Source: Aestuariibaculum sp. M13 (GTDB lineage: Bacteria; Bacteroidota; Bacteroidia; Flavobacteriales; Flavobacteriaceae). Taken from it: a DNA stretch of 64,000 nucleotides. Both the position numbers and the translations under genes were made by a program. Positions within the stretch are counted from its first letter, which is position 1. Each line of letters starts with the position of its first letter. Location of the stretch: contig NZ_JANIAC010000004.1 in assembly GCF_024723255.1 (NCBI RefSeq), forward strand, positions 310,001-374,000, given 5' to 3'. Positions 33,378 through 61,381 of the stretch are shown one piece after another. The notes under the pieces were generated by a model, which did no database searches, was not told the DNA's origin, and saw only the letters and a list, made by a program, of their open reading frames with translations.

Positions 33378-33419
33378 AGATTAACCATAATTAGAAAACC
33401 CAAAATTTTAGAGTTGCGG

Positions 33420-33427
33420 TAATTTTG
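33420..33427 (+). promoter_or_regulatory. -7 promoter element before copA
   Basis: TAATTTTG matches TAnnTTTG in the 74-bp gap between the HMA-AraC gene and copA, 25 bp before the start. It suggests a second promoter for copA-cusB, possibly the target of the HMA-AraC protein. Confidence 0.5.
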
Positions 33428-33451
33428 AATGGTAAATTTTAAAATGAGAAA

Positions 33452-35953
33452 ATGATGAAACATACATATCACATACACGGAATGACTTGTAATGGCTGTC
33501 GCAGTCATGTTGAAAGCACACTTGCTAAAGTGGAAGGCGTTACCAATGCATCGGTAGATTTGGCAAAGGCTGAGGCAACGATAGAGATGGAAAACCACAT
33601 TCCTATTGAAAGGTTGCAGCTAGCATTAAAAAATGATGGCGGCAGATACAGTATTCATATGCCGGGACATCACCACCATGAGGCTCCCAAAAAAGTGGAA
33701 AAACCAAAAGGTAAAGGAACAGGGGTATTTTATTGCCCGATGCACTGCGAAGGTGATAAAACTTATGGTAAACCTGGGGATTGTCCGGTTTGCGGGATGG
33801 ATTTAGTTGAAGAACAAAATTTGTTGGTAACAACGTCAGAACAGTGGACATGCCCTATGCACCCTGAAGTGGTGAAAGATGAAGCCGGTTCTTGCCCAAT
33901 TTGCGGCATGGACCTCGTGTCTTTAAAGCTTGAAGCATCAGCTGAAGAGAAAACCTATAAATCGCTGTTGAAAAAGTTTTGGATAGCCACGGCGTTTACC
34001 TTGCCAATTTTCCTAATAGCGATGAGCGAGATGCTTCATAATAATCCATTATACGATATTATGGAACAAAAATACTGGAACATGGTGCAGTTTGTATTAT
34101 CGCTTCCTGTAGTGTTCTATGCAGCGTGGATGTTTTTCGAGCGTGCTTATAGAAGTATTAAAACGTGGAACCTAAATATGTTTACCTTAATCGGCATTGG
34201 TGCCGGTGTGGCCTGGGTATTTAGCGTGGTCGGTATGCTGTTACCAGATATGTTTCCGGCACAGTTTAAAACTGAATCAGGAGCGGTGCATGTTTATTTT
34301 GAAGCAGCCACAGTGATTTTAACGTTGGTACTTTTAGGACAGTTGTTGGAAGCGCGAGCACATAGTAAAACCAATTCAGCGGTTAAGGAATTATTGAAAC
34401 TGGCTCCAAACAAAGCGATTAAAATGATAGATGATGATGAGGTTGAGGTTGGAATTGATAGCATTCAAATTAACGATATTCTTAAAGTAAAACCCGGTGA
34501 CAAAATTCCGGTAGATGGCGTTTTGGTTAAAGGAAACTCGAGTGTCGATGAGTCGATGATCACCGGAGAACCTGTTCCTGTAGATAAACAGCTAGGAGAT
34601 AAGGTTAGTAGTGGAACAATTAATGGTAATCAGACTTTTTTAATGAAAGCCGAGAAGGTTGGTAGCGATACCTTGTTATCACAAATTATTCATATGGTGA
34701 ATGATGCCAGCCGAAGTCGTGCACCCATTCAGAATTTAGCCGATAAAGTATCTGCCTATTTTGTGCCCATTGTGGTTATTATTTCAATAATCACATTTGT
34801 CGTTTGGTCTATCTGGGGTCCAGACCCTGCCTATGTTTTTGCTTTGGTGAATGCGATTGCGGTATTAATCATAGCCTGTCCTTGTGCCTTAGGATTGGCA
34901 ACGCCTATGTCGGTTATGGTTGGTGTTGGTCGCGGTGCACAGCATGGTGTGCTTATTAAAAATGCCGAGGCCTTAGAGTTGATGAATAAAGTTAATGCTT
35001 TAATTATCGATAAAACAGGAACCATTACAGAAGGTAAGCCAAGTGTGGAAAAAATTGGAGTTTTTGGTGAGGGTTTAACTGAAGATGTGGTATTACAATA
35101 TATAATTTCTTTAAATACGAATAGTGAGCACCCATTAGCTGAAGCAACGGTGAATTATGGTAAGATGCATCAAACTAAAACTCTACAATCGGAGCAATTT
35201 AATGCGGTTACCGGAAAAGGTGTTGAAGCGGTTATTGATGGAAAAAACCTGGCTTTGGGAAATCCTAAAATGATGGATTATGTAAAAGCTGATATTAATT
35301 CGCAGATGGAAGAGGAAGTTAAAACTTATCAGAAACAAGGCAAAACGGTGTCCTACCTGGCTGTTGAAAATGAGGTTGTAGGTTATGTGGTTATTGGGGA
35401 TAAAATTAAAGAAACCAGTAAAGCGGCTATAAAGGAATTGCAGAGCAAGGGGGTTGATGTGATTATGCTTACAGGTGATAATCACGATACGGCACAAGCA
35501 GTGGCTTCAGAGTTAAATCTGACGGAGTTTAAGGCAGGTATGTTACCAGAAGATAAATTGAAAGAAGTAGAGAAACTTCAGAATAAAGGAAGACTGGTTG
35601 CTGTTGCCGGCGACGGTATTAACGATGCGCCTGCATTGGCGAAAAGTAATGTGGGTATTGCTATGGGAACAGGAACCGATGTCGCTATAGAAAGTGCTAT
35701 GATAACCTTGGTAAAAGGCGATTTACAAGGTATTGTAAAAGCGAGGCATTTAAGTCATGCGGTAATGAAGAATATTAAACAAAATCTGTTTTTTGCTCTA
35801 ATTTACAATACGCTGGGTGTGCCAGTGGCAGCGGGGGTGTTGTTTCCGTTTTTCGGTATTTTATTATCCCCAATGATTGCTGCATTGGCTATGAGTTTTA
35901 GTTCGGTGTCAGTAATAACAAATGCATTAAGATTAAGAAAAGTAAAAATATAA
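33452..35953 (+). CDS. copA: Copper-translocating P1B-type ATPase
   Basis: The 833-residue pump begins with an HMA domain (GMTCNGC, C13 and C16) and then two heavy-metal-binding modules in tandem: YCPMHCEG...CPVCGMDL (about 91-120) and WTCPMHPE...CPICGMDL (about 131-158). The ATPase core follows: CPC translocation motif in [13 protein letters not shown], phosphorylation site [13 protein letters not shown], and hinge [14 protein letters not shown] plus the C-terminal [15 protein letters not shown] (Asn, Met-Ser-Ser type) fit Cu(I) specificity. It exports copper from cytoplasm to periplasm, where the Cus-like complex can remove it. It is 3 bp upstream of the adaptor gene. Confidence 0.93.
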
Positions 35954-40835: not shown

Positions 40836-41915
40836 TTATTCATCTTCAAGCACATCTACGATTTCGTACATGTCTTTACCGTCTACCTGAATAGGTTGGT
40901 AATACGTGTCTCCAAACTGTACAAAGGTCTGGTCGCCAATTTTAACTTCTTCACCACCTTCCGGTAAGTTAGGTACAATAGTTCCGGCTGTTGCAGGTAC
41001 TACAATATAGCCATCGGCATTTTGTTCATAAAAAGCACCGCCGTAATAGTAGTTATTAGTTTCGTTAACAGTGACTTTTTCGGCCTCGGTAGGGATAGAA
41101 GGTACCTGAGCACCAATTGGTGCCTGAACCGCTTCAAAACCATCTTCGGTTTTTAAATAGTACGTGCCATTGTCGTAATGGTATTCCTCGTTATTATCAT
41201 TGCTGTCGTCAATAATGGCAACAATAATGGCTGTTGTGGCTAATGTGGTTACAAAATAACCCCATGGATGCCAGTGTGGACCCCAGTAGTATGGACGATA
41301 CGGGTGGTAGAAATATGGTCTGTGACAGTAAAATCTAAAACCTCCAAAAATGTAAGGTGGTCGCGAATAATGCGAATGGCTGTGTCTTACATAAGTGTTT
41401 CTGTGGTTGTGGTGATTGTTATTAACATTGATGTTAATATTGTTATGACTGTTATTAATGTTAATGTTATTGTGCCCACCACCGGTATTTCCAGGTCTTC
41501 GATTTACCGTTTTTACATTTGAAGTATTTTTATTTCGATTAATAACTTGTTTGTTATTTGTTGGTTTATTTCTGTTAATAACCTGTTTGTTATTATTGTT
41601 TGTAGTCGGTTTGTTCCTGTTTATAGTCGTTTTGTTGTTTGTATTTCGGTTAGGTAAATTGTTTCTGTTAACCACTTTGGTATGACCACCATTTATGGAG
41701 CCGCCTCGGTTTGTTGGGGTTGTGACTTTTCGGTTTGCTGTAGTGGGTCTGCTTACCGGGCGACTTGCCGGTTTGTGAGCCATGCTTGTATTGCCACCTC
41801 TTGACACCGGATGTTTTAAGCGTTGTGCGTTTAAGTTTTCGGTGGTTCCCAAGCTTAAAATAACTATTAAGGCTGTAGCTGAAAAGTATTTAATGCTGTT
41901 TAATATAAGTTTCAT
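40836..41915 (-). CDS. Secreted Asn/His-rich protein, DUF6515-like C-terminus
   Basis: The 359-residue protein has a signal peptide (to about residue 30, LNAQ), then a low-complexity region (about 60-200) full of Asn, Arg, Thr and His. It includes imperfect repeats around KQVINRNKPT and an NININ-type stretch. Next is a Tyr/His/Pro-rich segment (FYCHRPYFYHPYRPYYWGPHW region), a hydrophobic stretch (about 222-237), and three repeats of a YY..G.F/YE...GY.VV.AP.GA.V..LP pattern (about 245-350), as in DUF6515-type proteins. Function unknown. It may be a surface or matrix protein. It lies next to two other small secreted proteins on the same strand. Confidence 0.6.
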   Translation of the reverse strand: MKLILNSIKYFSATALIVILSLGTTENLNAQRLKHPVSRGGNTSMAHKPASRPVSRPTTANRKVTTPTNRGGSINGGHTKVVNRNNLPNRNTNNKTTINRNKPTTNNNNKQVINRNKPTNNKQVINRNKNTSNVKTVNRRPGNTGGGHNNININNSHNNININVNNNHHNHRNTYVRHSHSHYSRPPYIFGGFRFYCHRPYFYHPYRPYYWGPHWHPWGYFVTTLATTAIIVAIIDDSNDNNEEYHYDNGTYYLKTEDGFEAVQAPIGAQVPSIPTEAEKVTVNETNNYYYGGAFYEQNADGYIVVPATAGTIVPNLPEGGEEVKIGDQTFVQFGDTYYQPIQVDGKDMYEIVDVLEDE

Positions 41916-43146: not shown

Positions 43147-43362
43147 TGTAAAAGGTTTAGGTTTAACATATTCTGTCTTAAATTTAGTGAATTATCTTCA
43201 CTTTTTCTTACATCTTTTCGAATTTTAATATTTAGATAACTTAGGTGAATTAAAATTGAATGGAAAGACTAATACTTTGGTTTAATATGAGTTAAGTTGT
43301 GAGGTTGTTCGTCTAGCGATACTTTTTGATAAAATACATGAAAATGCCCCTGTTTTTATAAC

Positions 43363-43417
43363 TGAACAAATCTCGAACGAAACTCGAACAAAACCCGAGC
43401 AAGAAACGAATCGAACC
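43363..43417. repeat. Five 11-bp-phased CGAAC direct repeats in an intergenic region
   Basis: GAAC-type cores start at 43364, 43375, 43386, 43397 and 43408, each exactly 11 bp apart, with consensus near CGAACAAAACT: TGAACAAATCT, CGAACGAAACT, CGAACAAAACC, CGAGCAAGAAA, CGAATCGAACC. The array lies in the 313-bp gap between the 133-residue gene and the YitT-type gene (43147-43459), where I see no coding sequence. One-helical-turn phasing suggests cooperative protein binding on one face. Confidence 0.55.
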
Positions 43418-44804: not shown

Positions 44805-47800
44805 ATGAAAAAAAATTACTTACCTCAGGATGTCTTTTTGTTTTGCCTCATAGTTTTTTTTATTTCATTACCGTCTTTTGCACAAAAGAATAAAGATATT
44901 ATGCCAGTTGTTGAATGTGTAAAAGATTTAACCAATGGTCTGTATCAGGCTACTTTTAGCTATTATAACCCAACTAATAAGGAAGTTGTAATTGATGAGT
45001 CGGGTAGTATTGTTAAAACAAATAACGGAAAAAAAGTAGCTAAAGGTTTAAATAAATTCAAGCCAGGGTCTGTTGAAAAGGCGTTTACAAAGATATATGG
45101 ACCGCATGATTATGTAGAGTGGACTATTATTAGTAACGGAAATACCCATACCGTTATAGCGAATGCTAATTCGAATAAATGTTATGATGACGATGGTATT
45201 GTTTTCCCTGTGGTGGGGAATAATGGAAAATCTTATGATATTATTGGTCAGAAACTTTCAGCTTTATGTGATGGTGTTGCAGGAGAAACACCTTCCGATT
45301 TAATTTTTCAAATTGATGAAGGAAAGGTGTTAGTAGAGATTGTGCCTAAGGCCGGTGAAATGCAAGCGGTTTTGGATTTATTGCAAGGCCCGGTCTTCAA
45401 TATTCCTGATTCCGATTTCTTACTGGCTGTATCTGAATACCTTAATCTTGCTGCAATTGATGTGTATATTATCCCTTCTGATGTATGTCTCCTTAATAAT
45501 TATTCAGATATTATAAATTTTGCAAGGCCCGTTTATCCGGCTTACAATAATTCCGGAGGAATTGTTTCGCAAGGTGATGGCGCACAGACTTCAGATTTGG
45601 TGAGACAATCCTTTCGAATCATTCAAAGCGATGGAACGGTTTTACCTGTAGACGGAACGGGAGTAAAGGTAGGGGTGTTATCTGATAGTTATGATATGGC
45701 CTTGGGAGGTCCGGAATATGCTGCTCTAGATGTTGAAAATGGGGAATTACCTTCTGGTGTTCAGGTTTTAGCTGATAATAAATATAAATCATCTGATGAA
45801 GGTCGGGCCATGTTACAGATTATTCATGATGTAGCGCCCGGAGCTTCTTTGGCATTTCATACGGCAACGGCTTCTCCAAGACAGTTTGAAGTGGGATTTA
45901 ATGCGTTAAAAGATGCTGGTTGCGATTTGATAGTTGATGATATAACGTTTATTACTGAACCCTTCTTCGGGATTGGTAGAATTTCAGAGAGTGTTCAGGC
46001 TTTTGTAAGTCAAACAGGTGGCTTTCATTATACCTCCGCCGGTAACATTGCGAATAAAGGTTATCAGGCTAATTTTAATAGTTCTTCAGGAACGCCAATA
46101 ACGAATTTTATACCAGCCGGAACACCTACAGTTGCTCATGTTTTTGGAACGAATTCTAATGGTTCCGAGGATTATTTACAGAAAATAAGTGTTGTTCCGG
46201 GAACTTATTTGGTTGTATTGCAATGGAAGGAGGATGTGGCATCACAACAAAATCAGGTTGGAGCCGATAACGATTTGGATATTTATATTGTTGATGATTC
46301 GGGTCGATTATTAGTTGGAAATAATCGTGTAAATGTGAATGGAGACCCGACTGAAATTATAGTATTTAAAGCCACAGGGACAGGCGATGCGAATATTTTA
46401 ATAACGAGTGCAAACGGACCAACAAATGTGCCATTTAGATATATTGCGTTCAGAACAACGGCCGAAGACGGTACACCAGATGGTCTTTCATTCCCAGAGT
46501 ACTTCGGTACGGGAGCACCTACAGTTAGTGGACATGCCATGACACCGGAATCCATTACCGTTGGAGCTGTAGATTATAGGTTTGCAGATAGTCCGGTAGC
46601 AGAAGCGTTTTCAAGTTATGGAGGGTTATTAAAAGATGGTGTAAATTTAGAAATTGATATGTATGCGCCAGATGGCGGGAATACAGCTTCCACAACTATT
46701 GGTCAACTGGCAACATGTGACACTTGCGATAAAGATGATGCACTAAATTTTTATGGAACTTCTGCTGCAGCACCTCATGCCGCCGCCGCCATGGCATTAC
46801 TTAAGTCGGCATTACCATATTGGTACCCTGATGGTTCGGGAGCCTCAACATTTTCAGATGCTGATGCCTTGTCAACGTTTAAGAATACAGCGGTTGGTTT
46901 CACAGCTCGGGATGGCGGAGCAGCACAGTTTTTAAATACGGTAAATGCTTTTAAAAGTCTGGCGGCACAGACAGCTAATATTACGTCTTTAACTATTTTA
47001 ACAGGGAATCCGGGAGCAGAACCTATTCAGCTTTCTATTATAGGAGAATTTTTTCCGTCTTTAAGTGAAGAGCCATATCCGGCCAAGGTATATTTTGATG
47101 GTAAGGAAATTACGGATATTCAGGTGATTTCCGATACTGAAATTATAGCAATAATTCCAGAGTTTACAGGAAACCCGGATTTAAAAATCTATACAGCACC
47201 AAAACCTGGAACTGAAGGGAATGGTGGGTTTTCCGATCCGGTTAAAATTTTACCTGATGGCAGATATGCTATCAATATTGTGCCAAATAATGCTATTTTT
47301 GAATATGGTCAGGATATTAGTTTATCATATTATGTTCAAGGTCTGCCTCCTGAAGATATTGGTGATTCAACCTTATCTTTTCCTGAGATTATGGCAGCTT
47401 TAGGATTTCCTGAAGTCGTGTTAAGTTCGGGAGCGGACGAAAAATTGGCATTAGGAGAATATCCCATTGTTTTTGATTATGTGATAACACCATCATTTGC
47501 AGAAGAGTTATCTACTGAGTTATCCGAGAAATATCAGGTAAACTTCGTTTCAGGCTATATCGATTCAGATCCGGAAATAGGTAAAATAGGGTATTTGACG
47601 ATTACTAAAAAAGATTTAACAATTACGCCTGAAGATGTAGAGTATACTTATGGGGATCCAATTACTATTGGATTTAATTATCAATTTAATGGAACAGGAA
47701 TATCTGATGAAGAAGGATTTAGGTTATTGATTGATGAAACCCATGCCAGTGATTTTAAGGATGGTATTCCTAGTAAGTTTCAGGCTTTAGTTAGTAAGTT

Positions 47801-49496
47801 TCAAGCTTTAGTTAGTAATTATGATATGACCTTTTTAAATGGAGGTAGTTGGAGTGCTTCCGGACGTACTATTCAAAATAAATTTCAGGCATTAGTTAGT
47901 GGAATGAGTGTGATAAGTTTAGATAATGATAATTTTACTAACTATATAGATGCACGCGAAGATTTTGATAGTGGAACAACAAGTAAGTTTCAGGCTTTAG
48001 TGAGTAAGTTTCAAGCTTTGGTAAGCGCTGAAGATTTATTTGCTGGCGATGTGGAGTTAGGTATAGAAAATAAATTTCAGGCATTGGTTAGTAAATTTCA
48101 GGCTTTAGTAAGTTCAGATGATCCGGAGAGGCCTTATGAAGGGTATGCTGAGGTGTTTACAATAGTAGATGCTGAGGATGCGCCTCCTGAAGATGGGACT
48201 GATGATGAACGGGCTATTTCTGAAATTTATGCTTTAAATATGTTAACTGGTATAGATGTAACAACGGAGGAAGATAAGAATTATGTGTATCCAGGAGCAT
48301 TTTTGAATGAAATGTCGGCAAACTTTAATATTACGTATGGCATAGGGAATGTTATTATTAATCCTAAGGATTTAAATGTAAGTACAGAAAACATTTCCAT
48401 TCCTTATGGAACTGATTTGACTGAAGCCATGCTTTTGGATATTACAACATTTGATGGTTGGGCATTTGAAGGTGAAGCTATGGAGTCTGTTGAAATTGTT
48501 TTTCCTGATGGCGTGCCATTCTATTTTGTGAAAGATAATCAGGAGTTTGAATTGTCAGAGCTTAGTACATTAGGTGAATATCAGATTAAAATAAGAGATC
48601 CTAAAAATTACGTTATAAATTCTTTGTATGATGAATCCTATGGCGCTTTAACCATAACCCCTGCAACACTTCATGTTATTATTTCTCCTGATGATTCTGT
48701 TGTACTTCAAGGTGAAAACCCCGATTTAGCTTTCGAATTTGATGGCTTTGTCTCCGGTGATGATGAAAGCACGGTCTTTCCAAGTGGTGTGCCTTATTAT
48801 TTTGTAGATGATACAGGTAATAGTTTTAACGATACCAGTATTCCTGGATCGTATTATATTAAAATAACAGAACCTGAAAATTACATTATAATTTCCAATA
48901 CATCTCATGTATTCGTGAACCCTTCAGATAGCAATAGAAAGGTAAGAACTTATGCCGATTGTGTTGCTTACGATCCGAATGCTATAGGTAATTTAAAATA
49001 TACAGTAGTTTACAGATATGAAAATGATAATAATTATCCTGTATATGTTAATGAAGGAGAAGATAATAAGCTAACAGGTGCTCCTCATAGTGGTGTTTTA
49101 CCAACGGTATTTATGCCAGGAGAAGGAATATTTGAGATTCAATTTGATGGGACTCAATTGGTTTGGAGTCTAACAACCTATGATGGTACACAAAAAAGTT
49201 CGGTATCCTCGGCATCTACTAGTGAAAGCGGTAAATGTGATGCTAAACTGGATGGAGCATATTCCGTTTATCCAAATCCAGTTTCGACCACGCTCTATAT
49301 TGAGCAGAATATTATGGAGAGTAATGTTTCAGTTTTGGTAATTAATATGTACGGATTTGTAGTCATCGATGCAGGAACATTTGATAGCCCTCTTAGTACT
49401 AAGGAAATCAATATGTCAAGTTTACCAACAGGTCTGTATGTTGTTAAGGTAGCCAGCGAATCAGAGATAAGAACCTATAATATTTTAAAAGAATAA
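44805..49496 (+). CDS. Large subtilase-like T9SS protein with MBG domains and KFQALVS heptad insert
   Basis: The 1563-residue protein has a signal peptide (SLPSFAQ), a novel-looking N-terminal region (about 30-275), a subtilase-like domain (about 285-720), an IPT-like segment (about 730-815), MBG-type beta domains (about 830-1345) and a T9SS type A sorting domain (about 1485-1563, YSVYPNPVSTTLYIEQN). Visible active-site residues are Asp in VGVLSDSYD (D294), Asn in SAGN (N414) and Ser in GTSAAAPH (S653). At the HGT position where the catalytic His should be, the sequence is DEGRAMLQIIHDVAPGA, giving Glu332. One MBG domain is interrupted by seven KFQALVS heptads (991-1103). It is secreted, probably surface-anchored, and followed 8 bp later by the cyclase gene. 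Confidence 0.8.
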   Translation: MKKNYLPQDVFLFCLIVFFISLPSFAQKNKDIMPVVECVKDLTNGLYQATFSYYNPTNKEVVIDESGSIVKTNNGKKVAKGLNKFKPGSVEKAFTKIYGPHDYVEWTIISNGNTHTVIANANSNKCYDDDGIVFPVVGNNGKSYDIIGQKLSALCDGVAGETPSDLIFQIDEGKVLVEIVPKAGEMQAVLDLLQGPVFNIPDSDFLLAVSEYLNLAAIDVYIIPSDVCLLNNYSDIINFARPVYPAYNNSGGIVSQGDGAQTSDLVRQSFRIIQSDGTVLPVDGTGVKVGVLSDSYDMALGGPEYAALDVENGELPSGVQVLADNKYKSSDEGRAMLQIIHDVAPGASLAFHTATASPRQFEVGFNALKDAGCDLIVDDITFITEPFFGIGRISESVQAFVSQTGGFHYTSAGNIANKGYQANFNSSSGTPITNFIPAGTPTVAHVFGTNSNGSEDYLQKISVVPGTYLVVLQWKEDVASQQNQVGADNDLDIYIVDDSGRLLVGNNRVNVNGDPTEIIVFKATGTGDANILITSANGPTNVPFRYIAFRTTAEDGTPDGLSFPEYFGTGAPTVSGHAMTPESITVGAVDYRFADSPVAEAFSSYGGLLKDGVNLEIDMYAPDGGNTASTTIGQLATCDTCDKDDALNFYGTSAAAPHAAAAMALLKSALPYWYPDGSGASTFSDADALSTFKNTAVGFTARDGGAAQFLNTVNAFKSLAAQTANITSLTILTGNPGAEPIQLSIIGEFFPSLSEEPYPAKVYFDGKEITDIQVISDTEIIAIIPEFTGNPDLKIYTAPKPGTEGNGGFSDPVKILPDGRYAINIVPNNAIFEYGQDISLSYYVQGLPPEDIGDSTLSFPEIMAALGFPEVVLSSGADEKLALGEYPIVFDYVITPSFAEELSTELSEKYQVNFVSGYIDSDPEIGKIGYLTITKKDLTITPEDVEYTYGDPITIGFNYQFNGTGISDEEGFRLLIDETHASDFKDGIPSKFQALVSKFQALVSNYDMTFLNGGSWSASGRTIQNKFQALVSGMSVISLDNDNFTNYIDAREDFDSGTTSKFQALVSKFQALVSAEDLFAGDVELGIENKFQALVSKFQALVSSDDPERPYEGYAEVFTIVDAEDAPPEDGTDDERAISEIYALNMLTGIDVTTEEDKNYVYPGAFLNEMSANFNITYGIGNVIINPKDLNVSTENISIPYGTDLTEAMLLDITTFDGWAFEGEAMESVEIVFPDGVPFYFVKDNQEFELSELSTLGEYQIKIRDPKNYVINSLYDESYGALTITPATLHVIISPDDSVVLQGENPDLAFEFDGFVSGDDESTVFPSGVPYYFVDDTGNSFNDTSIPGSYYIKITEPENYIIISNTSHVFVNPSDSNRKVRTYADCVAYDPNAIGNLKYTVVYRYENDNNYPVYVNEGEDNKLTGAPHSGVLPTVFMPGEGIFEIQFDGTQLVWSLTTYDGTQKSSVSSASTSESGKCDAKLDGAYSVYPNPVSTTLYIEQNIMESNVSVLVINMYGFVVIDAGTFDSPLSTKEINMSSLPTGLYVVKVASESEIRTYNILKE
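47775..48113 (+). repeat. Seven in-frame 21-bp repeats encoding KFQALVS
   Basis: Copies are at 47775-47795, 47796-47816, 47880-47900, 47985-48005, 48006-48026, 48072-48092 and 48093-48113 (residues 991-997, 998-1004, 1026-1032, 1061-1067, 1068-1074, 1090-1096, 1097-1103). All seven peptides are identical, while the DNA varies only at synonymous positions (AAG/AAA, CAG/CAA, GCT/GCA, TTA/TTG, GTT/GTG/GTA, AGT/AGC). Three tandem pairs and one single copy are separated by unrelated spacers of 21, 28 and 15 residues. Confidence 0.95.
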
Positions 49497-49504
49497 ATGT
49501 TTCT

Positions 49505-51493
49505 ATGAATTTAAGGCAAGGGTTACTTTTTATTTGTGTGTTTTTTCTGTTAGCTTATTCAGGTTTCGGCCAAAATAGTTCTATAGATAGTCTTAAAAGA
49601 ATTGTTAACTCAGGTGTTAAGGATACCACAGTGGTTATTGCTTTAAATGAATTAAGTAAGGAATTAATCGGTATAGGTGATTTTAACGAATCTTATTCAG
49701 CTGCAAAGAAAGCTAATGATTTGTCTATTGAGATAGATTATAAGAGGGGAGTGGCTTATTCATTAAAAAATATAGGACTAACTCAGTTTTATCAAGGGAA
49801 GTATCTTGATGTACTTAATTCCTGGACGCAATCATTAAAGGAATTTGAATCTATTAATGATACAATTGGTATGGCTACAGTAGTAAATAATTTGGGAGTT
49901 ATTTACTATAGTCAGGGAGGAAATGTTAAGGCATTGGATTATTATTTACGTTCTTTAAGTATTTCGGAGAAAATTAAAGACAATTATAATGTAGCTCAAA
50001 CTTTGTTAAATATTGGAGGGCTCTATGCAGAAATGGGGAATTATGATAAGGCATTGGAGTATTTCAATAAGTTTAATGACTATAAGCAAAATGTTAATGA
50101 TAATGATTCCAAACTTTTAATAGGATACTTAATGGGAGTTGGAGAAGTATACTATAAAAAAGGACAATATGATGAAGCACTTTATTATTATCAGGAAGCT
50201 TTGGTTATTAATAACATTGTTTCTAAACGTGTAGACAATCTTCTTAAAATTGGTAAAGTATTATTAAAGAAAAATGAGATTAAGAAATCAATACAAAATT
50301 TTAATGATGCTTATGAGATTTCAAAATCCAATGAGTTATTACTATCTCAGATTCAGGCCTTAGATGCTTTAGGAGAAGTTTATAGAAAGGAAAATTTTAA
50401 AAAGTCTGTTGCAGCCTACAAAGAGGCAGAAGCCTTAGCAAAAAGTATTGAGGCTAACGATGAGTTGAGAGATATATACAAAGGTTTGTCGAGTACTTAT
50501 GCGATGAATAGTGATTTTGAAAAAGCTTACTACTACAATGAATTATACGTAGCTAAAAAAGATTCTTTATTTAACCTAGAAACAGATGATAAAATAAGAG
50601 GACTTCAGTTTGATTTTGATTTAGAGAAAAAGGAAGATCAAATTGGTCTTTTAGAGAAAGATTCAGAAATTATGCAGCTCAAGCAAAAAAGACAAAAAAG
50701 TGTTATTTTGGTTTCTTTGTTAACTATTCTCGTTGTATTTATATCAGCGGTGGGACTATATAAACGCTATAAGTTTGTGAAGGCAACAAATCTAATTATT
50801 GAGCAGGAGAAGAAACGATCAGAAAATTTATTACACAATATTCTTCCTGAAGAAACGGCAGTTGAGCTAAAAGAAAAAGGTAAAGTAGAAGCTAAGAAGT
50901 TTGAATCTGTTACAGTATTGTTTACCGATTTTAAAGGTTTTACCTATTTTGCTAAAGATTTGTCTCCGGAAGACCTTGTAAATAGTGTAGATTATTACTT
51001 TTCTAAGTTTGACGAAATCATGGAAAAATATGGCATCGAAAAAATAAAAACTATTGGTGATGCCTATATGTGTGCAGGAGGCTTGCCATTCCCAACCTCC
51101 GATCATCCTTTTAAAGTTATTATGGCGGCTTTCGAAATTGCGCAGTTTATTGATGAATCGAAACGAAATGCCGGAAAAAACGTAACTACATTCGATATTC
51201 GTATTGGTGTTAATACCGGACCCATAGTTGCCGGAGTTGTTGGAATTCATAAGTTCGCTTACGATATCTGGGGAGATACTGTAAATGTAGCTTCAAGAAT
51301 GGAGTCGCTATCAGAACCCGGTAGAATTAATATTTCTGAAAACACTTATGACATTGTTAAAGACGTTTTCGACTGTAAATATCGGGGTGAGATTGAAGTG
51401 AAAAACCGTGGAATTATGAAAATGTTTTTCGTAAACGGAATAAAAGATCAGGGATTTTTAGATCGGCTTCAATTGAATAGGACTGCTGTTTAA
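49505..51493 (+). CDS. TPR-containing membrane-bound class III adenylate cyclase
   Basis: The 662-residue protein has a signal peptide (AYSGFGQ), a periplasmic TPR array (about 40-345, e.g. NLGVIYYSQGGNVKALDYY and ALYYYQEAL), one membrane helix (about 398-420), a short coiled coil, and a cytoplasmic cyclase domain (about 445-645). Metal-binding aspartates are in LFTDFKGF and TIGDAYM. The Lys in EKIKTIGD and the Asp in DIWGDTVNVASR are the pair expected for ATP rather than GTP. It should make cAMP in response to a periplasmic signal. It follows the subtilase gene by 8 bp, so the two are probably co-transcribed. Confidence 0.9.
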   Translation: MNLRQGLLFICVFFLLAYSGFGQNSSIDSLKRIVNSGVKDTTVVIALNELSKELIGIGDFNESYSAAKKANDLSIEIDYKRGVAYSLKNIGLTQFYQGKYLDVLNSWTQSLKEFESINDTIGMATVVNNLGVIYYSQGGNVKALDYYLRSLSISEKIKDNYNVAQTLLNIGGLYAEMGNYDKALEYFNKFNDYKQNVNDNDSKLLIGYLMGVGEVYYKKGQYDEALYYYQEALVINNIVSKRVDNLLKIGKVLLKKNEIKKSIQNFNDAYEISKSNELLLSQIQALDALGEVYRKENFKKSVAAYKEAEALAKSIEANDELRDIYKGLSSTYAMNSDFEKAYYYNELYVAKKDSLFNLETDDKIRGLQFDFDLEKKEDQIGLLEKDSEIMQLKQKRQKSVILVSLLTILVVFISAVGLYKRYKFVKATNLIIEQEKKRSENLLHNILPEETAVELKEKGKVEAKKFESVTVLFTDFKGFTYFAKDLSPEDLVNSVDYYFSKFDEIMEKYGIEKIKTIGDAYMCAGGLPFPTSDHPFKVIMAAFEIAQFIDESKRNAGKNVTTFDIRIGVNTGPIVAGVVGIHKFAYDIWGDTVNVASRMESLSEPGRINISENTYDIVKDVFDCKYRGEIEVKNRGIMKMFFVNGIKDQGFLDRLQLNRTAV

Positions 51494-51577: not shown

Positions 51578-52174
51578 ATGAAAGGCTACTTAAAATTAAG
51601 AAAACATGCTCTACATATTTTAAACACAGAATTACCTGAAGAACTTTGTTATCATAATATTATTCATACGCTTGATGTTCTTAACGTGGTCAATAAATAT
51701 ATTCGAAGACAAAAAATTGATAATCATCATGCTAAATTATTACGTATAGGAGCTATACTTCATGATATTGGCTTTACCGTTGGAAGAGAAAATCATGAAG
51801 AAAAAGGTGTTGTTATAGCCAAGCGATTAATGCATCAGTACAACTTCTCTGAAAAAGATATTAAAATTGTTAAAGGATTGATTTTGGCCACCAAAGTGCC
51901 ACAATCTCCAAAAACTAACTTGGAAAAAATAATATGTGATTCAGATTTGGATTATCTGGGAAGAAGAGATTTTTATGTTACCGGAGATCAGCTTTTAAAA
52001 GAATTGAATAATCAGGGGTTTAATCTGGATGTTGAGGAGTGGAATAAAATGCAGATAACATTTTTGAAAGATCACAAATACCTCACCGAGTTTGCTAAAA
52101 AGTACAGAAAGCCTAAAAAAGTGAAACGTATAAAGGAATTAGAAAAGTTAATTGAGAATGAAATTGCGAAATAG
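51578..52174 (+). CDS. HD-domain phosphohydrolase-like protein
   Basis: The 198-residue cytoplasmic protein has HD-superfamily metal ligands: His in CYHNIIHTLDVLNVV, the HD pair in LHDIGFTVG, His in ENHEEKGVVIA, and Asp in ICDSDLDYLGRRDFY. Such small HD proteins can hydrolyse nucleotides or cyclic nucleotides; proximity to the cyclase invites that idea, but no substrate is shown. The gene lies 84 bp after the cyclase gene and is convergent with the ECF sigma gene, with only 2 bp between the stops. Confidence 0.75.
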   Translation: MKGYLKLRKHALHILNTELPEELCYHNIIHTLDVLNVVNKYIRRQKIDNHHAKLLRIGAILHDIGFTVGRENHEEKGVVIAKRLMHQYNFSEKDIKIVKGLILATKVPQSPKTNLEKIICDSDLDYLGRRDFYVTGDQLLKELNNQGFNLDVEEWNKMQITFLKDHKYLTEFAKKYRKPKKVKRIKELEKLIENEIAK

Positions 52175-54190: not shown

Positions 54191-57100
54191 ATGGAAAAAA
54201 AGTTAACCACAACAACTTGTAGGTTACTCAGTAAACTCAACCCTTTAATTATACGGTTCATGAAACGTTCTCTCATGTTATGTATCGCATTTTTCAGTAT
54301 CACTGCTTTTTCTTTTTCTCAGAAAATCTCCATTAAAATGGGGAAAGTTACATTGCATGATGCACTAAAAGAAATTAAAAAGGAAGCAGATGTAGACTTC
54401 TTTTACAGTGATAAAGAAGTAAATGTAGACCGCATAGTTTCTGCTAATTTTAATAATGCTGATGTTATAGATGCTTTATATACTTTGTTAGGGAACACTT
54501 ATAATGTTCAAAGAACAGAGGATGGTATTATTTTAATCAGTCCGAAATATACAGCATCTTTTGAAAATGAAATTAAAGTATCTGGTGTTGTTACTGATAA
54601 AAGTGGAATGTCACTTCCTGGTGTTACCGTTATCGTAAAAGGTACAAAATATGGAACCACAACAGATTTTGACGGAAATTATGCATTAACAGTGGATGAT
54701 TCGTCAATATTAGTATTCAGCTATATAGGATATAAAACTGTTGAATTAGAGGTTAAAGGCAAAACAAAATTAGATGTTACTTTAGAAGAAGAAGTAAGTG
54801 CATTAGAAGAAGTCGTTATTACTGGTATTGTAGAGCGTAAGAAAGAAAGCTTTACAGGAGCAACAACTTCAGTTAAAGGAGAAGATTTAAAAGCTATAGG
54901 TAATTTAAATATTATTGAAAGTTTGAAGACTTTAGATCCTTCATTTGTTATTGTTGAGAATAATGCTTTAGGGTCTAACCCTAACCGTTTACCAGATATT
55001 GAGGTTCGTGGTAAAACAAGTATCTCTACTGATGATATTCGCGATGAATTTGGAGGAAACCCTAATCAGCCATTATTTGTGTTAGATGGCTTCGAAACCA
55101 CTTTAAGAAATATTATCGATTTAGATATGAATCGAGTGGCATCGATTACTATTTTAAAAGATGCTGCATCTACTGCTTTATACGGTGCAAGAGCCGCTAA
55201 CGGGGTGATTGTCGTAGAAACTGTAAAACCAGTTGCTGGAAAATTAAAAATTAATTACACATCCGATTTTAGAATTGAAGCACCAGATTTAAGTGGTTAT
55301 AACTTAATGAATTCCAGAGAAAAGTTAGAGTATGAAAGATTAGCTGGATATTGGACATACTCGAATACAGAAAACTATATTGGTCAGTTTGAATTAGATA
55401 AGCAGTATAACAATATTTTATCTGAAATAGAACGTGGTGTAGATACCTATTGGTTAAACGAACCAGTACAGGTAGGAACTTCTTTGGCGCACTCATTATA
55501 TATAAGCGGAGGAGCAGAAAACATTACTTATGGTGTTGGTGTAAATTATAGAGACCAGGAAGGTGTTATGATAGGTTCTGGGCGTAAGACCTGGGGAACC
55601 AATTTCGATTTGACCTACAGAAAAGGAAAGTTAAATATTAGCAACCGTTTACGTATTAATGGATATGATGCCGCCGAGTCGCCTTACGGGTCATTTTCAG
55701 ATTTCGCAAAAGCGAATCCTTATTTCAGAAAATATAATGAGGACGGAAGTATTCCTAAATATTTAGATATCAACGATTATTGGGTTGGAGAAACACGTGA
55801 TGATGGTTTGTTAAAACCATTAATAGGAAACCCTTTGTACAATGCGAGTTTAAATTCTTATGATGAAACTAAGAACACGCAAATAACAAACAACTTACAA
55901 GCAATATTAACGATTAATCCTAAGTTACGTTTAACTACACAATTGCAAATCAATAAGTCTAGTACAACAGGCGAAGTATTCTTAGATCCATCTCATACAA
56001 GTTTTGCGAAAGCAGCTTTTACTAAGGCAGGTACTTATAAATTTAATCAAACCGAGCAGTTTAGCTATAATTTAAATACCATGGCTACCTATGCTACAGT
56101 TATTAACGATAAACATAGAATTACGGCCAACTTAAGAGGATCTGTCGAAGAAAGTGATAATAGACGGATAAGCATGGCTGCCGAAGGATTTCCGTTAGGA
56201 ACAAATGGTAATCCTGGTTATTCCTTTAGTTACCAGAATAATTCTTCACCTTCAAATACCTCAAATGTTTATAGAAGAGTAAATGTTGTAGGTAGTGCTA
56301 ACTATGAGTATAACAAAATGTATTTCTTTGATGTAAACTACCGCTTAGATGGATCTACAGTTTTTGGAGCAAACAATAAATACACACCATTCTGGTCGGC
56401 TGGGGCAGGTTGGAACTTAGCGAATCAATTTGACTTAGATGAAAATTATGTGTCTTCATTAAGATTGAGAGGTAGTGTTGGTCAAACAGGAAATCAAGGT
56501 TTTGGTAATTTGTCTGATGCAAGTATTTATAACTTCTTTAAAAGTGTTAATAATTTTGGCCAGTCGTTAGATTTAATAACCTTAGCTAACCCAGATTTAG
56601 AATGGCAAAAAACATTGGATTACAGTTTTGGTATTGAGGCATCATTATTGAAAAATAGAATCGTTACACAGTTTAATGTTTATAAAAAATTAACCGATCC
56701 TTTAGTGGTTAAAATAGATAAGCCATCATCTACAGGAATTGTATCATACCCTATTAATGCGGGATTAATGAATACAACAGGTATAGAAAGTATGGTGAGA
56801 TTCTCTCCTGTTTATAATCTTAAAGATCAGATTATATGGACGGTAAGTGTAAATACTGCAACCGTAACCAGTAAATATGATAATTTCAGTAATATTCTAC
56901 AAAAGTTAAATGACGAGGCGACTGAAAATAATTCTTTACAACGTTATTATGATGGTTATAGTCCAGACGATTTATGGGCTGTAGAATCTTTGGGTATAGA
57001 CCCAGCAACCGGAGAAGAAGTGTTTTTAACAAAAGAAGGTCTCCCTACTTTCGAGTATAGCGCTAGTGATATTAAAAAGGTAGGTAATAGCCGTCCATCT

Positions 57101-57556
57101 GTTGAAGGTGTAATAGGAAACACCTTTAGATATAAAGATTTAACTGTGGGTGTGAATTTAAGATACCGTTTAGGAGGTGATGTGTTTAATAATGCATTAT
57201 ACAGCAAAGTAGAAAACATATCTAAAGTTAATGTTATAAATAATCAAGATTTAAGAGCTTTAACCGAAAGATGGGTAAATCCTGGGGACGTAACTTTATT
57301 TAAGGCTATTGACAATTTTACGCGAGTTAATATGTCTTCTCGTTTTGTTCAGGAAGAAAACGTGCTTATTGGAGAATCTATTAATTTGGGATATCAGTTT
57401 AGAAATAAAGCATGGATGCGTAGTATTGGATTGGAGCGTTTACAGTTAAACGCTTACATGAACGATATTTTCCGTGTGTCATCAATTCAATCTGAGCGCG
57501 GTATAAATTACCCGTTTGCCAGATCGATATCATTTAGTTTAAATGCTAATTTCTAA
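54191..57556 (+). CDS. SusC-like TonB-dependent receptor with N-terminal STN signalling domain
   Basis: The 1121-residue receptor begins with an extended leader (start at 54191; an internal Met at residue 24, MKRSLMLCIAFF, would also give a signal peptide). After SFSQ comes an STN domain (about 46-115, KVTLHDALKEIKKEADVDFF), a carboxypeptidase-D-like domain (about 128-205, VSGVVTDKSGMSLPGV), plug (LEEVVITGIVERKKESFTGA) and barrel. The STN domain and adjacent FecR/sigma genes make it a trans-envelope signalling transporter, unlike the first SusC in this window. The substrate is unknown; no glycosidase is in the operon. Confidence 0.95.
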   Translation: MEKKLTTTTCRLLSKLNPLIIRFMKRSLMLCIAFFSITAFSFSQKISIKMGKVTLHDALKEIKKEADVDFFYSDKEVNVDRIVSANFNNADVIDALYTLLGNTYNVQRTEDGIILISPKYTASFENEIKVSGVVTDKSGMSLPGVTVIVKGTKYGTTTDFDGNYALTVDDSSILVFSYIGYKTVELEVKGKTKLDVTLEEEVSALEEVVITGIVERKKESFTGATTSVKGEDLKAIGNLNIIESLKTLDPSFVIVENNALGSNPNRLPDIEVRGKTSISTDDIRDEFGGNPNQPLFVLDGFETTLRNIIDLDMNRVASITILKDAASTALYGARAANGVIVVETVKPVAGKLKINYTSDFRIEAPDLSGYNLMNSREKLEYERLAGYWTYSNTENYIGQFELDKQYNNILSEIERGVDTYWLNEPVQVGTSLAHSLYISGGAENITYGVGVNYRDQEGVMIGSGRKTWGTNFDLTYRKGKLNISNRLRINGYDAAESPYGSFSDFAKANPYFRKYNEDGSIPKYLDINDYWVGETRDDGLLKPLIGNPLYNASLNSYDETKNTQITNNLQAILTINPKLRLTTQLQINKSSTTGEVFLDPSHTSFAKAAFTKAGTYKFNQTEQFSYNLNTMATYATVINDKHRITANLRGSVEESDNRRISMAAEGFPLGTNGNPGYSFSYQNNSSPSNTSNVYRRVNVVGSANYEYNKMYFFDVNYRLDGSTVFGANNKYTPFWSAGAGWNLANQFDLDENYVSSLRLRGSVGQTGNQGFGNLSDASIYNFFKSVNNFGQSLDLITLANPDLEWQKTLDYSFGIEASLLKNRIVTQFNVYKKLTDPLVVKIDKPSSTGIVSYPINAGLMNTTGIESMVRFSPVYNLKDQIIWTVSVNTATVTSKYDNFSNILQKLNDEATENNSLQRYYDGYSPDDLWAVESLGIDPATGEEVFLTKEGLPTFEYSASDIKKVGNSRPSVEGVIGNTFRYKDLTVGVNLRYRLGGDVFNNALYSKVENISKVNVINNQDLRALTERWVNPGDVTLFKAIDNFTRVNMSSRFVQEENVLIGESINLGYQFRNKAWMRSIGLERLQLNAYMNDIFRVSSIQSERGINYPFARSISFSLNANF

Positions 57557-57578
57557 AAAAAGAATAAACAGATATATT

Positions 57579-59039
57579 ATGAAAGTATATATAAAACATA
57601 TTATAACACTAATAATGCTTGTTGTGTTAGTGTCTTGTGACGATTATCTGGATATAAAACCAGAAGACAAGTTTTTAGAAGAACAAGTGTTTGAGTCTAA
57701 GAAATCAATACTAGCTGCTTTAAATGGTATTTATACAAACATGGCGAGCCCAGAAACTTATGGAGGAAATTTAACCATGAGTGCGGTAGATTTATTAGGG
57801 CAGCAGTATAAAACACCTGGAGAGAATCATTCTTGGTATGGGATTGCTCATTACGATTATGAAGATCCTAAAGCAAGAAGTGCATTTAATAGTATTTGGT
57901 CTACGCAATATGCCACCATTTTAGCATTAAATAATTTTTTAACAGGATTAGAAATGTATCCGGGCGTATTAACAGTAGAAGAGGAGAATATTGTTAAAGG
58001 CGAAGCTTATGGCCTTCGTGCAATGTTGCACTTTGATTTATTACGTTTGTATGGACCTGTATACAGTGTAAGCCCAGAGAAGGAAGCTATACCTTATTCT
58101 TTAGATAACTCTGGAAATACCCTAGAATTTTTATCGGCAAGTGAAGTTATAAAATTGGTATTAACGGATTTGGAGTTAGCAGAAACCTTTTTAGAAAACG
58201 ATGCTATTATTAGTGAAGGTCCTGCAGATTTGTATGGTTTTGGTGATCCAGGTTTAGAAATTTTAGAATCAGAAGCGGACAAATTAAATCAATTAAGACA
58301 ATATCGTTTTAATTACTATGCTGTGAAAGCATTACAGGCTCGTGTAAATTTATATGCAGGAAATAAAACAGAAGCTTTACAAGCCGCCAAATATATTATA
58401 GATAATGCGTCTCAATGGTTCCCTTGGACAGATGAAGATAAAGTTTTTGATAGTAATGACCCTGATCGTACATTTTCTACAGAAGTAATTTTTGGTTTAA
58501 TTAATACAGACCTTTATGGTAGACAAATTGATTATTTTACCACTAATAGAGATCAAGATGTTTTAACAGCAGATTATAGTATTTTGTTAAGCACCTTTGA
58601 GACTTTGCAAGATTACCGATTTACAACTACATGGATTGTGCCACAATCAGGTAGAGCGTACCATTTATTCTATAAATACGCTGACGTAGCAAATAAAGAT
58701 CATTCAGATTTTAGGTTTAAACAGCCATTAATTAGAATGACTGAAATGTATTATATAGCGGCAGAAACAGAGCCAGACCCTGCGGTAGCTGCTGAATACA
58801 TAAATACGGTTAGAGCTAACAGAGGTGTAGCAGGAGATATAGAGCCTAGCAATTTACAAAACGAAATTTTTAAGGAGTATAAAAAAGAGTTTTACGGTGA
58901 AGGTCAGTTGTTCTTTTACTACAAACGCTTAAATGTACCAACTATAAATAGTGGAACACAAGGTGTATCTCCTTATACTATGGGAGCCGATCAATATGTG
59001 GTGCCATTACCATTGTCTGAAACTGATTACCGTAATTAA
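57579..59039 (+). CDS. SusD-like lipoprotein (second SusCD locus)
   Basis: ATG at 57579 (MKVYIKHIITLIML) gives a proper lipoprotein signal with VLVSC (C20); an upstream in-frame ATG at 57543 overlaps the SusC stop and adds a charged leader, so it is less likely. The roughly 486-residue protein has SusD/RagB features: DDYLDIKPEDKFLEEQVF, a GEAYGLRAMLHFDLLRLYGP helix (about 138-157), and a C-terminal SusD segment. It partners the STN-type SusC as its substrate-binding lid. Confidence 0.92.
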   Translation: MKVYIKHIITLIMLVVLVSCDDYLDIKPEDKFLEEQVFESKKSILAALNGIYTNMASPETYGGNLTMSAVDLLGQQYKTPGENHSWYGIAHYDYEDPKARSAFNSIWSTQYATILALNNFLTGLEMYPGVLTVEEENIVKGEAYGLRAMLHFDLLRLYGPVYSVSPEKEAIPYSLDNSGNTLEFLSASEVIKLVLTDLELAETFLENDAIISEGPADLYGFGDPGLEILESEADKLNQLRQYRFNYYAVKALQARVNLYAGNKTEALQAAKYIIDNASQWFPWTDEDKVFDSNDPDRTFSTEVIFGLINTDLYGRQIDYFTTNRDQDVLTADYSILLSTFETLQDYRFTTTWIVPQSGRAYHLFYKYADVANKDHSDFRFKQPLIRMTEMYYIAAETEPDPAVAAEYINTVRANRGVAGDIEPSNLQNEIFKEYKKEFYGEGQLFFYYKRLNVPTINSGTQGVSPYTMGADQYVVPLPLSETDYRN

Positions 59040-59050
59040 AATTTAAGAAG

Positions 59051-59842
59051 ATGAAAAAATATATTTATATATCAATTTTAGCGTGCAGCACACTTCTTAG
59101 TTTAGTGGCTTGTGCTAAAGATGAACTACAGGAATTCGATACACTTGTTAGCAATGTTTATTTTGAATGGGCTAAAGAAGGAAGAGAAAATTATACTCAA
59201 ACATTAGATAGTTTAGATTTTTCTTTTGTGCAATTTGATCAGTCGGTAACAGATACCATTATTAATGTGCCTGTTAAAATTTTAGGATATACTTCTAAAA
59301 TGGACAGAACAGTTAATATAAAGATTTTAAGCGATAAAACTACAGCCGAAGAAGGTGTGAATTTTACAATGCCTACTTCGGTGGTATTACCAGCAGATTC
59401 AGTTAGAGCTTATATTCCAGTTACCTTATTTAGAGATGCTTCTTTAAGAGAGGAAATTAAATCTGTAAGTTTTAAGTTGTTACCAAACCAATATTTTGGT
59501 ACAGATATTTATACAACAGAAGAATATCATAATGTAGATCGTCCATTAAGTTTTACGGAGTTCGAAATTACATTTTCTGATATTTTAACTAAGCCTTCCT
59601 ATTGGGTGTCTATATATGATAACTATTTGGGAGAGTGGTCTTCAAGAAAAATTTATTTGTTAGTTGAATTAACAGGCAAACCTCTAGATAGCTTCTTTTC
59701 AGGATATGCCACACCTTCTGGGTTATTTGCCGACACAAGAATTTTAAGAGATTATTTAGATGAACGTCGAGCAGCTAACGATCCTGTTATGGAGGCCGAT
59801 GGTAGTGAGATGAGAGTTGGAGATAATGCTTACTCAATTTAA
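59051..59842 (+). CDS. DUF4843-family lipoprotein
   Basis: The 263-residue lipoprotein (LVACAKDEL, C21) has the DUF4843 pattern: VYFEWAKEG near the start, VPVKILGYTSKMDRTVNI, TAEEGVNFTMPTSVVLPADS, then YWVSIYDNYLGEWSS-type aromatic motifs near 195-210. This Calx-beta-like family sits next to SusD in many Bacteroidota SusCD loci and is thought to be a surface accessory protein. It is 11 bp after SusD. Specific function unknown. Confidence 0.8.
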   Translation: MKKYIYISILACSTLLSLVACAKDELQEFDTLVSNVYFEWAKEGRENYTQTLDSLDFSFVQFDQSVTDTIINVPVKILGYTSKMDRTVNIKILSDKTTAEEGVNFTMPTSVVLPADSVRAYIPVTLFRDASLREEIKSVSFKLLPNQYFGTDIYTTEEYHNVDRPLSFTEFEITFSDILTKPSYWVSIYDNYLGEWSSRKIYLLVELTGKPLDSFFSGYATPSGLFADTRILRDYLDERRAANDPVMEADGSEMRVGDNAYSI

Positions 59843-59875
59843 TAAGTTGTTGAATTACATAATATTTAAAAAATT

Positions 59876-61381
59876 ATGAGATTAAATAAAATAAAATTAC
59901 ATTTTCTTGCTCTAACAGGTGCCTTAACATTGGGAGTATCTTGTATGGACGATGAAGGGAATTACGATTATAAAGATATTAATGAAGTAGAAATTAATGC
60001 TGTAAGCGAAGATTATACCGTAGAACGTTTTACAAACCTAGTTATAAATCCTGAAGTTAAATTCAGTATAGATGTAGACGGTGCAGGTGAGTATTCGTAT
60101 AGATGGGTTGCCGTTACAGATGCTTCAGGAAAGCAACAAGCAACCGAGTTGGGAACAACCAAAAATCTTGATGCAGTTATTAATTTAAAACCTGGGGAAT
60201 ATATTGGTTACTATTTTGTTACCGATGAAAAAACAGGAATTGAAACTCAATACGATTTTAACTTGGAAGTGATTAATACTACTTACGAAGGTTGGTTGGT
60301 GTTAAGCGATACCGACCAAAATCCAAGAGTAGACATGATTTCCTTGTATAATGGAGAATATCAGCCTTTTTATGATGTGTTTGCAGAAAATGGTTTAGAA
60401 CTTAGTGGAGAAGCAAAATTCATGAATTGCTACACTTTTACTAGGAATATGACTACGGGAGAGATTATTTATGGTGTTTATGTGTCTACCACAGGTAATG
60501 GAACAACCAGAGTAGATCCGGACACCTTTGAATGGTCGCCAGAAATGCGTGTATCGGCGGAGTTTCAAAGTCCACAACCAGAAGATTTGGAGTTGGATGC
60601 ATTAGAGTCTCCAGTAGGGCTTAGCAGCTTTGCCTTGGTTGATAACAATGTTTATTTTTATAACTTTAGTATGCAAAGAGCCTATAGTAGTCCACTAAAT
60701 ACTATTGCAGGAGAGCGTTTTGATGTATCTCCAATGATGGGAAAAGGTTATCAAACGTTTGCAGCTTTATATGATACAACCAATAAGCGTTATGTAAGAG
60801 CTTACCGAGGGGCTATGTATACGATGCCCGCATCGAGATCTACTAAATTCAACTACAATGACACAGGAATGGATCTTGTTTATATGACAAGTAATGATTA
60901 TTCTGGGTTAAAAGGAAATTATGTGTTTAGTATACTAAAAGATCCAGCTACTTCTAAACATTACTTAGCCAACTTTAATATTGGTAATTCGTCTCAAACT
61001 TACTATGAAGAAATAACAGGTGATGAAGAAGCGCCGTTTGCTCAGGCAGAACATATTGCTATAAATCCAGTTTATGGATATATTTACTACAATATCGGCT
61101 CTAAAGTGTATAGATACGACTGGACTAAGGTAACACCTGAGGTGCGATTAGAATTAGACGCTGGTAGCGATGAGATAACCTTGCTTAAATTTCATGATTT
61201 CGCAGGAGAGGTAAATACATCGTACGTAGAAATGCAAAACCATTTAATTGTTGGTCGTCATGATGGAATAGAAGGAACTTTAGAGTTCTATGATGTTCAA
61301 AATCTTGATAACCCATTAAATTTAGTGAGTTCTTATTCAGGATTTGGTAAAGTAAAAAGCGTGGCATACAGACAGCGATAA
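59876..61381 (+). CDS. PKD-like family lipoprotein
   Basis: The 501-residue lipoprotein (LGVSCMDDEGNYDYKDINEV, C23) starts like the PKD-like family (N-terminal Ig/PKD-type repeat with YSYRWVAVTDASGKQ at about 71-85). It continues into a long beta-propeller-like region (about 135-500). It follows the DUF4843 gene by 33 bp, an arrangement repeated in Bacteroidota SusCD loci that lack obvious CAZymes. Probable surface-exposed component of the uptake complex; ligand unknown. Confidence 0.78.
   Translation: MRLNKIKLHFLALTGALTLGVSCMDDEGNYDYKDINEVEINAVSEDYTVERFTNLVINPEVKFSIDVDGAGEYSYRWVAVTDASGKQQATELGTTKNLDAVINLKPGEYIGYYFVTDEKTGIETQYDFNLEVINTTYEGWLVLSDTDQNPRVDMISLYNGEYQPFYDVFAENGLELSGEAKFMNCYTFTRNMTTGEIIYGVYVSTTGNGTTRVDPDTFEWSPEMRVSAEFQSPQPEDLELDALESPVGLSSFALVDNNVYFYNFSMQRAYSSPLNTIAGERFDVSPMMGKGYQTFAALYDTTNKRYVRAYRGAMYTMPASRSTKFNYNDTGMDLVYMTSNDYSGLKGNYVFSILKDPATSKHYLANFNIGNSSQTYYEEITGDEEAPFAQAEHIAINPVYGYIYYNIGSKVYRYDWTKVTPEVRLELDAGSDEITLLKFHDFAGEVNTSYVEMQNHLIVGRHDGIEGTLEFYDVQNLDNPLNLVSSYSGFGKVKSVAYRQR

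Follow-up and report, generated by a model that had tools for sequence, protein, structure and literature searches.

Peptide words repeated on T9SS-secreted proteins of Bacteroidota co-vary with the sensor of an adjacent TPR receptor cyclase and are probable ligands

The seven heptads of a large T9SS-secreted protein encoded in the window (the whole stretch of DNA analysed, 64,000 nucleotides of Aestuariibaculum sp. M13) are likely to be repeated ligand words that are read by the TPR receptor cyclase of the adjacent gene, with the protein probably serving as the precursor of a peptide signal that it holds in several copies and whose pherotypes can be exchanged. At the level of sequence, the array gene and the receptor gene are tied together by their linkage, by the change of the word between relatives, by co-variation of word and sensor, and by the divergence of two separated blocks within one species; binding, peptide release and cell-to-cell signalling are what we infer.

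The array-bearing protein has, in order, an N-terminal hydrophobic segment, an S8-like domain, an MBG-like region with the seven heptads, an MBG_2 domain and a T9SS sorting tail. Its features, in window coordinates, are as follows.

44805..49496, + strand: array-bearing protein, ORF of 1563 aa (ORF list, Pfam and NCBIfam matches)
46500..46832, + strand: subtilase (S8) match, serine part, aa 566-676 (Pfam)
47775..47795 and 47796..47816, + strand: heptad copies 1 and 2 (KFQALVSKFQALVS; exact match in frame)
47880..47900, + strand: heptad copy 3, single slot (exact match in frame)
47985..48005 and 48006..48026, + strand: heptad copies 4 and 5 (exact match in frame)
48072..48092 and 48093..48113, + strand: heptad copies 6 and 7 (exact match in frame)
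48681..48872, + strand: MBG_2 (YGX type) domain, aa 1293-1356 (Pfam)
49266..49466, + strand: Por_Secre_tail, T9SS sorting domain, aa 1488-1554 (profile match)

An earlier, sequence-only reading had described seven perfect KFQALVS heptads at 47775-48113, and this was confirmed (7/7, exact and in frame, spanning aa 991-1103), as were their arrangement as three tandem pairs and one single (in the order pair, single, pair, pair, separated by 21, 28 and 15 aa) and the variation of their codons, which differ at six of the seven positions, F always being TTT. When the protein was shuffled 1000 times, the count of any 7-mer never exceeded two, as against seven for KFQALVS in the real sequence. Placement of the heptads inside an MBG domain did not hold, as the sole MBG_2 match of Pfam (aa 1293-1356) lies outside the array and the flanks are MBG-like by eye only. 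The C-terminal Por_Secre_tail is a feature of T9SS cargo. An AlphaFold model of the array domain, built from a two-sequence alignment, reached a pLDDT of 31, and no fold is therefore claimed for the array. Two single matches to the heptad motif lie elsewhere in the window's genome, and short tandem repeats are present upstream at window positions 41597-41636 (period 21) and 43360-43402 (period 11). Among 35 homologues, some with truncated rows, GTSA[AS]AP was found in 28/35 and SDEGR/K in 30/35, whereas HGTH was found in 0/35. SDEGR/K occupies the expected position of the catalytic His, in the window's gene and in homologues, and the S8-like domain is possibly of the Ser-Glu-Asp type or has an inactive site.

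Homologues were collected through searches of relatives, the family, genera and the phylum. In the Bacteroidota homologues an array is retained at the same place, with the KFQALVS word itself mostly replaced by others and usually one word, or its close variants, per protein. Exactly seven copies were found in nine proteins, the window's included: KFQALVS in the window's genome (G000) and UBA6231, KFQAVVN in G002 and G571, one KFQAVVN with six KFRAVVN in G003, KFQAVVS in G040, KFRAVVS in L091, KFKAVVS in L092 and KFKAIVS in L084. G571 is labelled as the same species as G000 and has the same copy number with a different word. In these nine proteins neither loss of the motif, nor random expansion, nor nonsynonymous decay was seen. 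Array spacings, compared in seven of the nine (without L091 and L092), are identical in five of them, and those of G040 and L084 differ only slightly. Farther off in the family, arrays are made up of four to six copies of GFKALVN, RFKAVVN, RFRTVLN, RARALVN, KLRAVVN, KSRAVVN and others, and there are arrays of six-residue words (NGISLV, NGLSVI, NGFSFV, NGIPLV, SLRGIV), of an eight-residue word (NGQALGII; L047, L095, L098) and of a nine-residue word (N[DE][FL]RQSA[VI]M; L096, L104). These 8-mer and 9-mer arrays occur in the same genus as heptad arrays. Variants of the word are mixed within some arrays, and conservation of the array has a limit in that some distant arrays are degenerate (G376, G148, G686); that of G456a looks broken, and all four genomes have the receptor despite this. 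Within one genus, the array of G376 (L138) is degenerate and that of G195 (L139) has 13 perfect NGLSVIN copies. Genus-level searches and a repeat family search returned no new array locus or genome, and no array relatives were confirmed in viral contigs. The notion that tandems of the RFQALVN type are common was not borne out as such: in one scan of genome contigs for the tandem pattern, UBA6231 was the single further record.

Codon identity between copies in 13 proteins is near the random expectation, often slightly above it: 0.34-0.49 against an expected 0.37-0.44 in eight proteins, and, in five, 0.29-0.64 against 0.28-0.41 at fourfold and 0.52-0.90 against 0.59-0.75 at twofold positions, and two classes clearly exceed it (fourfold positions in UBA6231, 0.64 against 0.41; twofold positions in G040, 0.90 against 0.63). 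Constancy is therefore a property of the peptide and mostly not of its codons. Five proteins sharing 63-91% identity each carry four GFKALVN and one DFKALVN, with the slot-specific D kept in all five; this retention of the word in all copies over a large divergence supports the proposal that selection acts on the peptide rather than on the DNA. The suggestion that an older pair-plus-single block was duplicated once found no such backing, as copy codons are near random and homologues show other codon patterns in the same slots. Slot-wise retention of codons was weak in a permutation test (joint p=0.02 with the third bases of the K, Q and A codons, 0.098 with all seven). Gene conversion was not adopted as the reason why the words stay in step, the codons of the copies agreeing mostly at near-random levels; synonymous sites are nearly saturated between species, however, and conversion of old date may have occurred. 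The same evidence bears on the possibility that the repeats are a structural array, a beta-stack or solenoid whose copies are kept alike by gene conversion or by packing, with an incidental link to the TPR protein. Agreement of the copies within a protein would fit such an array, as would that possible old conversion and the DNA identity of some copies (one neighbouring pair in L045; 5/596 pairs in eight proteins). It is at odds with near-random codons in most classes, with word lengths of 6, 7, 8 or 9 at comparable places and with the slot-specific D, and it leaves the co-variation with the TPR sensor described below, with its flat controls, unexplained; we consider it very improbable.

The reading of the heptads as ligand words draws on the neighbouring genes, which have the following features.

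49505..51493, + strand: receptor, 662 aa, with N-terminal hydrophobic segment, TPR sensor, TM segment and class III adenylate cyclase
49877..50086, + strand: part of the sensor (aa 125-194) that co-varies most with the word
49988..49990, + strand: sensor residue 162, Asn in the window
50690..50767, + strand: TM segment, aa ~396-421 (hydropathy)
50885..51439, + strand: cyclase catalytic domain with adenylate-type residues (Guanylate_cyc PF00211)
51578..52174, + strand: HD-domain protein (PF01966), often the third gene of the locus; putative cyclic-nucleotide phosphohydrolase

The TPR-cyclase adjoins the array gene in 46/49 loci, the other three ending at contig ends; the count combines 40/43 loci with six more (G148, G523, G145, G686, G855, G740) and is taken without the array-family fragments on other contigs, G461, G462 C58, G464, G456 C148, G465 C69, G452 C102 and G443 C172. 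Both frames were resolved in 35 of 37 loci, and in these 35 the two genes lie on the same strand, with the receptor downstream in 26 and upstream in 9. No TPR-cyclase was found beside 11 distant S8 relatives that have no array (the L194 contig ends 171 bases after the gene), an absence that is confounded with descent because those relatives are distant. The HD gene is present in the fetched stretch of 33/42 loci (9/42 are without it, some of them cut by contig ends). It mostly adjoins the cyclase; where the receptor is upstream it sits between the two genes, and in G686 and G855 it lies beyond the array gene. A second TPR-cyclase match in G463 (L148:1793-3349, - strand) lies close to the first.

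Hydropathy alone places a TM segment at receptor aa 396-421, separating the TPR from the cyclase. The catalytic residues of a class III adenylate cyclase (two metal Asp, the adenine-selecting Lys and Asp, and an Asn and Arg) are kept almost throughout: the first metal Asp in 35/35 receptors and the other five in 34/35 (one row truncated). Modelling of the sensor from a two-sequence alignment (pLDDT 77) predicted a TPR superhelix in which aa 160-176 form one helix, and Foldseek matched the model to LGN, solved with partner proteins, and to the pheromone receptors Rap and NprR. The stretch from TPR to TM segment (aa 179-422) matches the NCBIfam model FimS (NF053520) at 81.7 bits against a cut-off of 600; given this sub-cut-off match, TPR sensor kinases may merit a look for linked word arrays.

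Co-variation of the words with part of the TPR sensor across species is seen in the aligned sequences. The main partial Mantel test used 22 heptad-type loci of 35 resolved pairs, leaving out six-, eight- and nine-residue, broken and degenerate arrays, and one consensus word was assigned to each of the mixed-copy proteins G003, G294, G455 and G183. Word distance was correlated with distance in TPR aa 40-290 given the cyclase and S8 distances (partial r=0.47, p=0.0005), in permutations that leave some relatedness among loci in. The correlation was r=0.24 (p=0.025) for receptor aa 291-400 and r=0.11 (p=0.12) for the cyclase given the S8 distance. A sliding window peaked at aa 125-194 (0.43-0.57), with a lesser rise in the cyclase window from aa 505 (0.26-0.37). 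The signal at aa 125-194 persisted when three genus-mates and UBA6231 were removed (n=18, r=0.56, p=0.0005) and when four GFKALVN duplicates were removed as well (n=14, r=0.54, p=0.0005). Controls were flat in the 16 of the 22 loci for which the HD gene was retrieved (HD 0.03, S8 C-terminal part 0.08, S8 N-terminal part -0.15), whereas in the same loci receptor aa 125-194 gave 0.595 and aa 300-430 gave 0.19 (p=0.11). Residue 162, picked post hoc from 3,136 column-by-position tests, is Arg in 32/34 receptors paired with N-ending words of six or seven residues and in 1/5 paired with S-ending words, with G294, G195 and G855 as exceptions; seven rows with eight- or nine-residue, degenerate or broken arrays, all Arg at 162, are left out of these counts. 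Among heptads alone, Arg is found in 20/21 N-ending and 0/4 S-ending cases (Fisher 0.0004; rows related).

Array and sensor have also diverged between G000 and G571, the single genome pair that provides the within-species evidence. In the alignment of this pair (61,209 nt of the window, 95.4%), dips were defined as identity under 85%, and two blocks stand out.

47751..48250, + strand: divergent block of about 0.5 kb with the heptads (KFQALVS in G000, KFQAVVN in G571)
49501..50450, + strand: second divergent block, TPR sensor

These are the two long dips before a divergent SusC/D region at 54201; shorter dips lie at 29401-29750, 31951-32200, 35051-35250 and 35501-35700. The array gene has 92-100% DNA identity per 40-codon window outside about aa 982-1141 and 77-84% within that block, the next window having 90%. 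The receptor has 63-79% identity at aa 51-290 and 97-100% at aa 351-662, and the DNA between the two dips has an identity of 0.925-0.98 per 200 bases. Elsewhere in the window, the SusC/SusD-type locus at 54201-61650 is strongly divergent in this pair (76-83% in dips, with unaligned stretches), and 32817-33434, near two small identity dips, does not align to G571.

Site patterns in the quartet of G000, G571, G002 and UBA6231 were sorted into species-type, word-type and third-type. The array protein has 75, 24 and 1 of these, respectively, and of the word-type sites 22 are confined to aa 995-1121 (14 inside heptads, 8 outside), where there is one species-type site. The species pattern returns between the two blocks. 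In the receptor there are 28 species-type, 13 word-type and 5 third-type sites; all 13 word-type sites are at aa 39-272 (160, 162, 164, 165 and 166 fall in the first two turns of the predicted helix), and from aa 287 on only species-type sites occur. Trees of three backbone segments grouped G000 with G571 at 100/100, whereas the tree of the heptad block grouped G571 with G002 and G003 at 96/97 and rejected G000+G571 (AU p=0.0009). When the heptads were removed from the block, G000+G571 was still rejected (AU p=0.0057), and the grouping of G000 with UBA6231 was lost, yet not rejected (p=0.13). The TPR-segment tree did not group G000 with G571, but the AU test does not reject that grouping (p=0.068).

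Diversifying selection on an exposed, repeated epitope, as in escape from phages or predators, with a receptor that varies for reasons of its own, would fit the within-species divergence of the heptad block and of the nearby SusC/D locus. It predicts neither a sensor that follows the word nor the pairing of the genes, and is the least credible of the explanations weighed here, with a very low probability in our estimate. The main rival is a tethered ligand, in which the heptads bind the TPR sensor within the intact protein as it crosses the periplasm and the cyclase monitors the state of the cargo or of T9SS export. The same co-variation and linkage data fit it. A large scaffold that presents the word repeatedly, at some places as a single copy flanked by conserved spacers, would suit multivalency, and no processing site was identified. 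Why a private cargo monitor should have so many alternative words, or switch its word within a species, is not obvious, and we regard this explanation as unlikely, favouring a diffusible peptide signal with pherotypes. Among the functions the sequence-only reading had entertained, a ligand motif is the best supported; self-association and processing gained no support of their own.

Comparison with known systems gives partial likenesses. The precursor of yeast alpha-factor is likewise one secreted protein with several near-identical peptide copies, but the tandem heptads abut directly, without spacer peptides. In agr and ComQXPA, the ligand varies within species in concert with the sensor part of its receptor, and the signalling domain is conserved; the receptors are histidine kinases, and small genes encode the ligands, which are modified or cyclic peptides. 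Here too, the word block and the linked sensor segment diverge within a species, in one genome pair; the output of the receptor is a Guanylate_cyc domain (PF00211) instead of a histidine kinase. FimS shares the TPR-to-TM stretch and has a kinase where the present receptor has a cyclase. The RRNPP systems (Rap-Phr, NprR-NprX, PlcR-PapR, ComR-ComS) also match a TPR receptor to a short peptide from a neighbouring gene, with co-variation of peptide and receptor as found here, and the predicted superhelix of the window's sensor resembles Rap and NprR in the Foldseek comparison. Their receptors are cytoplasmic, whereas the present one is predicted, by hydropathy only, to be TM-tethered with its sensor outside the cytoplasm and is fused to an adenylate cyclase; their precursors are small with the peptide near the C-terminus, whereas the words here lie in the interior of a 1563-aa T9SS-secreted Bacteroidota protein. 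Phr prepeptides with several identical autoinducer repeats are mentioned in a published report (PMC5199041). PycC of Pycsar shares the class III cyclase fold, and PADLOC PycC models match the cyclase domain, but the present protein is a membrane receptor that has a TPR sensor, and its catalytic residues are of the adenylate type; in the PADLOC scan, which covered the receptor and the array protein, the latter had no match. The module would work much as RRNPP or agr systems do, with components unrelated to theirs, and is filed with neither, because receptor location and precursor form do not fit the former and the kinase does not fit the latter.

According to the favoured reading, a peptide signal with pherotypes, the TPR sensor would lie in the periplasm, as the N-terminal hydrophobic segment and one TM segment suggest, and would bind the word, with residue 162 helping to read its last residue. 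Word binding would then change cAMP synthesis, which is plausible in that the cyclase has the residues needed, and the HD protein may remove cAMP by hydrolysis. The array would most likely be a multi-copy precursor from which free peptides are presumably released, and the alternative words would be pherotypes exchanged by recombination. Evidence against such release is that no protease able to cut out the heptads was identified and that the S8-like domain is devoid of the canonical HGTH motif. On the wider proposal, that Bacteroidota communicate by T9SS-secreted words of 6-9 residues, with a TPR receptor cyclase reading them, an HD protein ending the cAMP signal and pherotypes passing between lineages, our confidence is evenly balanced.

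Term searches of open-licence papers listed neither a matched pair of peptide pheromone and receptor for Bacteroidota nor a relevant paper on the peptide words themselves, and the change in step of word and adjacent sensor suggests a kind of peptide signal and receptor that is new to these bacteria. The module comes in many natural pairs of word and sensor, which opens its specificity to tests with short synthetic peptides. If the favoured reading is true, it would provide a ligand for TPR receptor cyclases, add a role for T9SS cargo and bring pherotype exchange to Gram-negative bacteria.
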